Shown piece by piece: positions 6,005-7,312 of a stretch of 42,321 nucleotides of DNA. A program made the position numbers and the translations under genes. The notes beneath the pieces were generated by a model, which made no database searches, was not told where the DNA came from, and was given only the letters and a program-made list of their open reading frames with translations. Position 1 is the first letter of the stretch. The number at the start of each line of letters is the position of its first letter. The DNA is taken from contig JAHBSS010000013.1 of NCBI GenBank assembly GCA_019639015.1, positions 1 through 42,321 of the forward strand, written 5' to 3'. This DNA is from Cryobacterium sp. (GTDB taxonomy: Bacteria; Actinomycetota; Actinomycetes; Actinomycetales; Microbacteriaceae).

Positions 6005-6196
6005 TTACTGGATGGCGTGGTGACCGAGACCGGCGGTTGAGTATCCCGCAGCTGGCTGGATTTCCGGACGGGGCTCTTCAAGCTGATCGGTCCAATCCGT
6101 TCCGTTCCACCAGCGAAGCATCGGAAGTCCGGTTGGGTCGGGGTACCAACCAAATGGGGGTAATTCAGTTCTCGTGTCTTCAATTACTGTCGACAT
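6005..6196 (-). CDS. Short DUF2510-domain protein
   Basis: A 63-residue protein made almost entirely of one DUF2510 motif: PPFGWYPDPTGLPMLRWWNGTDWTDQ at residues 13-38. DUF2510 usually sits at the N-terminus of actinobacterial membrane proteins; here there is no membrane segment after it, so the gene is either a stand-alone mini-protein or the remnant of a larger one. The start ATG at 6194-6196 has GGAAAG seven bases upstream. It is convergent with the amidohydrolase gene and lies 158 bases beyond the terminator of the cysteine-rich mini-gene on the same strand. The 58 bases up to the amidohydrolase stop contain nothing recognisable. Confidence 0.65.
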   Translation of the reverse strand: MSTVIEDTRTELPPFGWYPDPTGLPMLRWWNGTDWTDQLEEPRPEIQPAAGYSTAGLGHHAIQ

Positions 6197-6353: not shown

Positions 6354-6392
6354 AAAAAAAGCCCAGCCGCGCAGTTTTTCGCACGGCTGGGC
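6354..6392 (-). terminator. Rho-independent terminator of the cysteine-rich mini-gene
   Basis: On the minus strand, the stem GCCCAGCCG (6392-6384) pairs perfectly with CGGCTGGGC (6369-6361); two further GC pairs follow after one mismatch, the loop is 8 bases, and a run of seven T follows (A7 at 6354-6360 on the plus strand). This is the most canonical intrinsic terminator in the window. It begins 17 bases after the stop codon of the 25-codon gene, so it is either that gene's own end or an attenuator. Confidence 0.9.
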
Positions 6393-6409: not shown

Positions 6410-6487
6410 TCAGCAGCAACCGCTCTCGCAGCATCCAGTGCTGCAGCAGTTGGCTTCGGTATCCGCGCTACAGTTTGCGTCACTCAT
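6410..6487 (-). CDS. 25-residue cysteine-rich mini-protein or leader peptide
   Basis: A complete small gene of 25 codons that is 28% cysteine: cysteines at residues 6, 14, 15, 19, 20, 24 and 25, in the pattern C-x7-CC-STG-CC-ESG-CC-stop. The N-terminal half is acidic and has no signal peptide (begins MSDANCSADTEAN). It has a perfect ribosome binding site, AAGGAGGT, five bases before the ATG, a small hairpin just upstream of that, and a strong intrinsic terminator just downstream. Six of the seven cysteine codons are TGC. I do not recognise a family. Possibilities: a metal-binding (metallothionein-like) peptide, a cysteine-responsive attenuation leader of the kind described in mycobacteria, or a precursor of a modified peptide. 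The signals make real translation likely; function is open. Confidence 0.75.
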   Translation of the reverse strand: MSDANCSADTEANCCSTGCCESGCC

Positions 6488-6492
6488 TGGCC

Positions 6493-6529
6493 ACCTCCTT
6501 CATCGACGAAAGTCGATTACACGAGCATA
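6493..6529 (-). promoter_or_regulatory. Leader of the cysteine-rich mini-gene: -10 candidate, hairpin and Shine-Dalgarno
   Basis: Reading the minus strand: a possible -10 TATGCT (6529-6524), then a perfect 6-bp inverted repeat ATCGAC-TTTC-GTCGAT (6517-6502), then the full anti-16S complement AAGGAGGT (6500-6493). The hairpin ends two bases before the ribosome site. No convincing -35 is visible. The arrangement suggests either an operator or a 5' stem affecting initiation. Confidence 0.5.
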
Positions 6530-6614: not shown

Positions 6615-6842
6615 ATGAAGGTTGCGATTACCGGTGGGGCTGGTTTCATCGGCCGACATTTCGCGGATCGGTTCGACCCTGAAAGCGTGGTCGCAAAATG
6701 CACAAGTGTCGGAAAAATCATCATGTTGAGTTTCTTGTAAGCCAGGCTTAATCGCAATTCTGGTTACCACGAGTCAAAATCGGCGGCTGAAGAACTCATT
6801 AGAAATTTGGGACTCAACTACAAGATTCTTCAAGCGGGATGA
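6615..6842 (+). pseudogene. Decayed NAD(P)-dependent epimerase/SDR gene
   Basis: A remnant of a Rossmann-fold epimerase. The start has a good ribosome site (TAGGAG) and the intact nucleotide-binding segment MKVAITGGAGFIGRHFADRF, then the similarity stops and an in-frame TAA occurs at 6738-6740. Downstream in the same frame (6762-6842) the sequence YHESKSAAEELIRNLGLNYKILQ matches the Y-x3-K active-site helix and following strand of the same family, ending at a TGA. About 60-100 residues that normally separate these parts are missing and the C-terminal half is absent. It therefore shows an internal deletion, a nonsense codon and a truncation. No intact copy is present in the window. Confidence 0.8.
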
Positions 6843-7312
6843 TTTACGGTCGCAGGAGAAAGAACTCCCTTTTTGGTGTAAACCTGCTCGCCTGTGGCGA
6901 GTCGCACCCAAGGGCGCATCTTCGAGTAAGGAACATTGTATTTGGCGCTTGCCTCCACTACATGGGCGGCCTGCACATACTCCGTAAGTAGCGAGCCTGA
7001 TTCAAGGCGATGAGGTAACGGTGTAGAGCAAAGGAGAGGTACAGGTACGCTGAGGATTTGACCGCTACGCCCCAATTCGATCCCCCAGCCAGTGACGGTT
7101 ACTGCTGCGGTGCCGGTATTTCGAGCCGTGACCGAAACCATTTCTTCACTAATTCTCCCGTCCCCGCTGGCGATCCAAGACCTCGCGGTCGAAGCCTTTA
7201 CACTGTGAGTAGAGCGCCGCCAGGTGATTACTTGCCAAACAAACGATGCGATGCCCGCAATTCCACCCACAACGCCGATCGCGGCGACGAAAAAAGTAAA
7301 CAATCCGTTCAT
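6830..7312 (-). CDS. Membrane-anchored protein of unknown function
   Basis: 160 residues. One N-terminal hydrophobic segment (about residues 4-29, FTFFVAAIGVVGGIAGIASFVWQVI) is followed by a basic WRRS boundary and a soluble beta-rich domain with ARNTGTAAVTVTGWGIEL and MRPWVRLATGEQVYTKKG. This pattern resembles small hypothetical proteins of actinobacteria with an Ig-like domain behind a membrane anchor. It lies convergent to, and overlaps by 13 bases, the epimerase remnant, so its C-terminus may be altered. No function is proposed. Confidence 0.7.
   Translation of the reverse strand: MNGLFTFFVAAIGVVGGIAGIASFVWQVITWRRSTHSVKASTARSWIASGDGRISEEMVSVTARNTGTAAVTVTGWGIELGRSGQILSVPVPLLCSTPLPHRLESGSLLTEYVQAAHVVEASAKYNVPYSKMRPWVRLATGEQVYTKKGVLSPATVNHPA

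Follow-up and report, generated by a model that had tools for sequence, protein, structure and literature searches.

The minus strand of the stretch of Cryobacterium sp. DNA analysed here (42,321 nucleotides, hereafter the window) contains an open reading frame running from 6487 down to 6410 whose product, MSDANCSADTEANCCSTGCCESGCC, would have 25 residues, 7 of them cysteines. This ORF is very probably a real gene. An earlier note, made from the letters of the window, had described it as a cysteine-rich ORF of 25 residues with a Shine-Dalgarno sequence ahead and a terminator behind, a description that our reading confirms. The features of the locus are the following:

6410 to 6487, minus strand: cysteine-rich micropeptide gene, MSDANCSADTEANCCSTGCCESGCC, from ORF reading and from similarly built ORFs in six sister genomes
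6493 to 6500, minus strand: Shine-Dalgarno sequence AAGGAGGT, read from the sequence ahead of the peptide ORF
6354 to 6392, minus strand: intrinsic terminator, with a 13-pair stem, a loop of 6 and a T7 run
6502 to 6517, minus strand: putative ArsR operator ATCGACTTTCGTCGAT, corresponding to the family's proximal site and the top weight-matrix position of the window
6005 to 6196, minus strand: neighbouring small DUF2510 ORF (Pfam E 5.6e-12)
6615 to 6740, plus strand: truncated epimerase-like start (MKVAITGGAGFIGRHF...), at the position taken by arsR in sister genomes
6833 to 7312, minus strand: 160-aa ORF with no Pfam match

The terminator divides into a stem-loop (6392-6361) and the T7 run (6360-6354), and the next ORF on the minus strand, the DUF2510 ORF (6196-6005), probably lies outside the unit of the peptide gene. 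A simple scan found no sigma-70 promoter for the gene, and an RNA family search returned two tRNAs and nothing else. Sixteen nucleotides before the peptide start there is an overlapping ATG (ATGAAGGAGGTGGCCAATGAGTGA; 6480-6503, minus strand) that opens a different frame of seven residues; that frame extends to 77 residues in sister genome G299 and 109 in G075, so the cysteine frame is the one that is kept. The DUF2510 ORF encodes 63 aa, and a similar 62-aa ORF lies behind the peptide gene of sister genome G138, so that the pair is kept in both genomes notwithstanding the hairpin between its members.

Among eight genomes sampled from the genus, which include the window's own (G000; 1.88 Mb, 87.9% complete), the peptide gene is present in seven, namely the window's own and 6 of the 7 sisters, where copies were located by comparing the region at the DNA level, which gave the syntenic copies, and by scanning the neighbourhoods of tig and an amidohydrolase gene. 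The sister peptides are MADGCCGTDASCCEGCCENGCCETSCC (G138), MNEDCTSGACCPEACTAGCCNSGGCC (G299), MNEDCMSGACCPEACTAGCCNSGGCC (both G075 and G300), MDEDCCDPLTCPPELCGTGCC (G190) and MNEDCCELLNCPPDICSPGCCC (G276); G236 has no peptide ORF beside its ArsR (L159). The conservation check in sister genomes proposed by the earlier note thus did not refute the ORF. A purine-rich Shine-Dalgarno sequence also precedes the relatives' ORFs, being weaker in G138 (AAGGGGGG). In all six sister copies a divergent arsR lies upstream of the peptide gene, encoding a protein of the form LLPIRDLQSCC[AS]PITRE...CVCDL that matches Pfam HTH_5 (E 1.3e-17) and in which Cys15-Cys16 is invariant. These two positions match the As(III) site of the Corynebacterium glutamicum ArsR, which is given as Cys15-Cys16-Cys55 in the available text of PMC11868830, and the best match among solved structures is 6j0e, an arsenic-responsive ArsR (E 3.7e-19). 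G276 carries two different arsR-peptide pairs (L093, L120), with arsC directly behind one and a MIP channel gene intervening in the other.

We surveyed the spread of this arrangement across Microbacteriaceae, where an As(III)-type ArsR occurs at E<=1e-20 in 180 of 299 genomes. Among the matches listed, 149 ArsR loci, each with about 1.1-1.5 kb per side, were subjected to a fixed ORF test (a length of 10-45 aa, 4 or more Cys, a Cys density of 0.15, CC occurring twice, and a stretch resembling an SD), a criterion that was fixed after the first examples had been seen. In 33 of the 149 loci there is an SD-led peptide ORF on the divergent strand no more than 800 nt from the arsR start. These 33 ORFs represent 32 distinct coding sequences, and their peptides have 12-28 residues with 4-10 Cys; a CC is terminal in every one, though the test required only two CC anywhere. 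The ORF lies at +74 to +145 from the ArsR start in 25 loci and at +513 to +547 in the other 8. Applied to the rest of the 149 loci, the same test found 1 ORF in 725 kb of strand, against 33 in 119 kb, corresponding to densities of ~1.4 per Mb of strand elsewhere in the loci and ~277 per Mb inside the divergent 800 nt, an excess beyond chance. Presence of the peptide rises with the identity of the ArsR to the query: 7/7 at 80% or above, 23/60 at 70-80%, and 3/82 below 70%. The automatic test was negative in 116 of the 149 loci; a peptide lacking a counterpart at so many ArsR loci is therefore dispensable. The test does miss some copies, including L116 (one CC) and L106 (seen again as L325); the two CC-rich ORFs beside ArsR that are outside the test's set are those of L116 and G069, and L017, in G087, lies outside the 149 loci. 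A sub-type of only 12-14 residues (MDETTGCCGGIGCC, MDDQTCCGGICC, MESSTGCCSGGCC) lies behind arsC, rather than ahead of it, in L261, L266, L276, L279, L108 and L140.

Searching the 299 family genomes directly with the peptide gave only weak matches outside G000 (best E 0.04), one of which, in G087, adjoins an ArsR. A profile search of the same genomes gave 12 matches at E<=0.05, 10 of them beside ArsR and most being the profile's own rows. The new matches were in G069, beside ArsR and ArsC; in G152, a solitary gene with both of the palindromes described below; and in G209, where the frame is interrupted by a stop and there is no peptide ORF. Since the family profile gives it no score at E<=1, the window copy is, as judged from its sequence, a divergent member of the family. 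At the level of the order, a divergent peptide ORF was found in none of the 30 ArsR loci scanned (0/12 in the same family, 0/18 in other families). On named contigs, a set that partly repeats genomes of the 149-locus survey, 28 of 42 ArsR loci have a peptide ORF, and the genera concerned include Leifsonia, Humibacter, Subtercola, Glaciibacter, Agrococcus, Curtobacterium and Diaminobutyricibacter. A tblastn search of plasmids with one relative, with the low-complexity filter on, gave no match.

Several observations bear on whether these ORFs are translated. When the peptides were aligned from the C-terminus in six groups, pN/pS was 0.04 (n=3), 0.17 (n=4), 0.28 (n=6), 0.44 (n=3) and 0.84 (n=3) in five of them, and 2.15 in the sixth (n=4), which is variable in length and crudely aligned. 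TGC/TGT switches occur at kept Cys positions, and within groups the non-Cys residues and N-terminal Cys pairs are also kept; across the family, sequence outside the cysteines varies widely. The window peptide matches nothing in Pfam or NCBIfam, in keeping with the earlier note, which had recognised no family, and among relatives long enough to be scanned (members of at least 20 residues) none matched in NCBIfam (10 peptides) or Pfam (9 peptides). By these comparisons the peptide belongs to no named family, and an ars-operon peptide of this kind is not named in any of the titles and abstract openings listed by the literature searches.

The family lies beside an As(III)-type arsR or other ars genes; the window copy has no arsR beside it. 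An arsC gene is in the same locus as the peptide in 28 of the 33 cases, and in 40 of the 116 ArsR loci without a peptide. Gene order is peptide-arsC in 16 of the 33, peptide-MIP channel-arsC in 2, arsC-peptide in 8, and in 2 arsC is behind arsR; in the remaining 5 arsC is absent from the fetched flank. A MIP channel gene is near the peptide gene in 9/33 loci. The arsC is of the LMW-phosphatase type (Pfam LMWPc), with NCBIfam arsenate reductase models falling below their cut-offs on a 75-residue piece, and inspection by eye found no peptide-ArsC fusions. Of the loci without arsC, L090, L092 and L127 show an ORF on the strand of the peptide gene, 190-360 nt behind it (CsoR-type, DUF2510-like and short-chain dehydrogenase), L102 has a weakly PLDc_N-like ORF (Pfam just under cut-off) behind it on the other strand, and L098 has no Pfam match behind the peptide on either strand.

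When peptide gene and arsR are adjacent, as in 25 loci, two conserved near-palindromes lie between the genes. The distal one, ATTGACAnnCGTCGAT, contains a TTGACA that would be a -35 box, and the proximal one, ATCGACAnnCGTCGAT, lies directly ahead of the ribosome site; the spacing between them is 37 bp in 14 of the 25 loci and 33-42 bp in the others. From their conservation between arsR and the peptide gene, we read both as putative ArsR operators. The 20 proximal picks from other genera, including three (L134, L284, L288) that are the poor automatic picks among the 25, were used to build a weight matrix, which was run on both strands of the window. Its best position in the whole window is 6502-6517, scoring 18.4 and 17.4 on the two strands, with the next position at 14.2; the window gene therefore keeps the proximal site though arsR does not adjoin it. 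The distal palindrome was not found ahead of the window gene.

Folded against mononucleotide shuffles, the 60 nt past the peptide stop reach z<=-2, the more stable side, in 20 of the 33 loci; among random windows 27 of 447 do so, and among segments behind arsR 8 of 149. The stems, judged by eye, vary in sequence from genus to genus, and the hairpins that have arsC behind them mostly show no U run, so these may act as partial terminators or as ends that stabilise the message; a Bacillus hairpin between ars genes lowers expression of the genes behind it, according to the available text of PMC4562236.

The window's own genome departs from this pattern. At 87.9% completeness, G000 has no As(III)-type ArsR at E<=1e-20, no CVCD motif in any of the 8 of its 9 HTH_5 matches that were inspected, no ArsC match (in a search run without a positive control) and no SBF/Acr3 (in a search whose control was positive in 12/14); given that completeness, these absences are not proof. 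To the eye, the epimerase-like start in place of arsR is similar to an ORF close to the G276 copy, and we take it to mark a rearrangement; the 160-aa ORF (6833-7312) lies next to it, likewise where arsR is in sister genomes. The adjacent arsR is lost in this genome, so control there is in trans or relaxed. A comparable case is G152, from another genus, where the solitary peptide gene MDAETLCFELGCPPALDQSCCSSGCC (L329) has both palindromes and the hairpin and no arsR motif within the 3 kb fetched, and where an ArsR is encoded elsewhere in the genome. An FMO-like ORF lies upstream of that gene.

Because the family adjoins ArsR repressors and arsenate reductases in Microbacteriaceae, an arsenic-binding role is probable. 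We consider it likely, and the best reading, that the gene encodes an arsenite-binding micropeptide derepressed through ArsR, in effect a minimal, metallothionein-like thiol sponge. Under this model, ArsR would occupy an operator covering the -35 box and another just before the ribosome site, and keep the gene off until arsenite bound at its Cys-Cys site released it. With its strong ribosome site and a hairpin directly after the stop, the gene would then yield a short, heavily translated message, and the vicinal thiol pairs of the peptide would bind As(III) (or Sb(III)) and retain it in the cytoplasm, alongside ArsC, the source of As(III) from arsenate. The Cys pattern is compatible with thiolate metal binding; we infer that the peptide would bind As(III), which presumably benefits the cell.

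The earlier note had suggested, among other ideas, a metallothionein-like or copper/zinc-binding peptide. The metallothionein-like part of this suggestion holds up, but the metal would most probably be arsenite rather than copper or zinc, since As(III)-type arsR and arsC adjoin the family and the palindromic sites are shared. That the peptides are instead Cu/Zn/Cd metallothioneins or precursors of a modified peptide, with the arsR neighbourhood incidental, appears very improbable: cysteine density alone would be compatible with it, as would the CsoR-type metal-sensitive repressor (Pfam Trns_repr_metal) behind the G075 gene, but such a gene was noticed at one locus only, and what the family is linked to is the As(III)-type arsR, arsC and the palindromes between them. 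The CsoR-type gene in question is at 4564-4884 of L084, minus strand, the same strand as the peptide gene and 360 nt behind it. A modified-peptide precursor, also proposed by the earlier note, is further disfavoured by a peptide too short for both leader and core and by the neighbouring ORFs read by eye, none of which resembles a modifying enzyme. An arsenic metallochaperone, ferrying As(III) among ArsC, ArsR and an efflux channel, much as ArsD serves ArsA, rather than storing it, would suit the presence of arsC in 28/33 loci, the nearby MIP channel gene in 9/33, and the vicinal Cys pairs, which are also a property of E. coli ArsD as described in the available text of PMC4562236. We nevertheless regard it as unlikely, as no partner is common to all loci (5/33 are without arsC, and the window and L329 without arsR) and the sequence beyond the cysteines varies widely.

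Similarly unlikely, in our estimate, is a cysteine-codon attenuator, in which ribosomes short of Cys-tRNA or thiols under arsenic would stall at the terminal Cys-Cys codons, mask the hairpin and allow arsC to be transcribed. The CC ends of all 33 ORFs, the stable hairpin past the stop (z<=-2 in 20/33, also where arsC follows) and the arsC or MIP-arsC genes behind 18 of the 33 peptides are all as such a device would have them. This reading is weakened by the 8/33 copies that follow arsC and the 5/33 with no arsC in the fetched flank, although the latter are mixed evidence (an ORF on the same strand does follow in L090, L092 and L127); in 2/33 more, arsC lies only beyond arsR. Moreover, stalling near the stop needs neither kept non-Cys residues nor N-terminal Cys pairs. 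The version in the earlier note, in which the attenuator acts on the DUF2510 ORF, fares no better, since a terminator with a U tract separates the two genes and the relatives show the arrangements just listed.

The arsenite-binding micropeptide, if the model is right, would be the intracellular sequestration gene that ars operons are said to be missing, and possibly the smallest dedicated metalloid-binding gene product known. That Microbacteriaceae ars operons regularly include a so far unrecognised natural family of arsenite-chelating micropeptides, the shortest of 12 residues (MDDQTCCGGICC), seems to us slightly better than an even proposition. According to a 2025 abstract (PMC12093948), the ars operon has yielded no gene for sequestration inside the cell, and the peptide family would supply one. 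Should the peptides bind As(III), they would be natural, genetically encoded tetra- and hexacysteine chelators that could serve in sensing and bioremediation, and arsR with its peptide gene would form a two-gene arsenic module that is directly testable. Annotation pipelines usually do not call genes as short as these, which would explain why they were overlooked earlier.

The closest known systems each share part of this design. The bacterial metallothioneins SmtA and BmtA and the mycobacterial MymT are proteins of ~50-60 residues that bind Zn/Cd or Cu. Like them, the peptides would be small, Cys-rich cytoplasmic products under a metal-sensing repressor; unlike them, they have 12-28 residues, match nothing in Pfam or NCBIfam where tested, and lie beside an As(III)-type ArsR. 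ArsD, a folded As(III) metallochaperone that works with ArsA, is likewise an ars-operon product with vicinal Cys pairs, but it is a folded domain of ~120 residues, against 12-28 residues here. Mycobacterial polycysteine leaders resemble the family in being very short actinobacterial ORFs with Cys runs towards the end; here, in contrast, Cys pairs are distributed along the peptide, residues besides Cys are conserved within groups, and behind 15 of the 33 copies there is neither arsC nor MIP-arsC. Engineered CCPGCC tetracysteine tags bind biarsenical dyes. Like them, the family peptides carry Cys-Cys pairs, two or three of them, separated by a few residues (e.g. MDDQTCCGGICC), but they come from natural genes beside arsenic-sensing repressors, and successive pairs mostly have three or more residues between them. 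In the ars1 cluster of Bacillus sp. CDB3 (PMC4562236) there is also a hairpin between ars genes, one that lowers downstream expression there, although it lies between arsC and arsD and the available text mentions no micropeptide. In function, the peptide would resemble a metallothionein or a natural tetracysteine chelator of arsenic.
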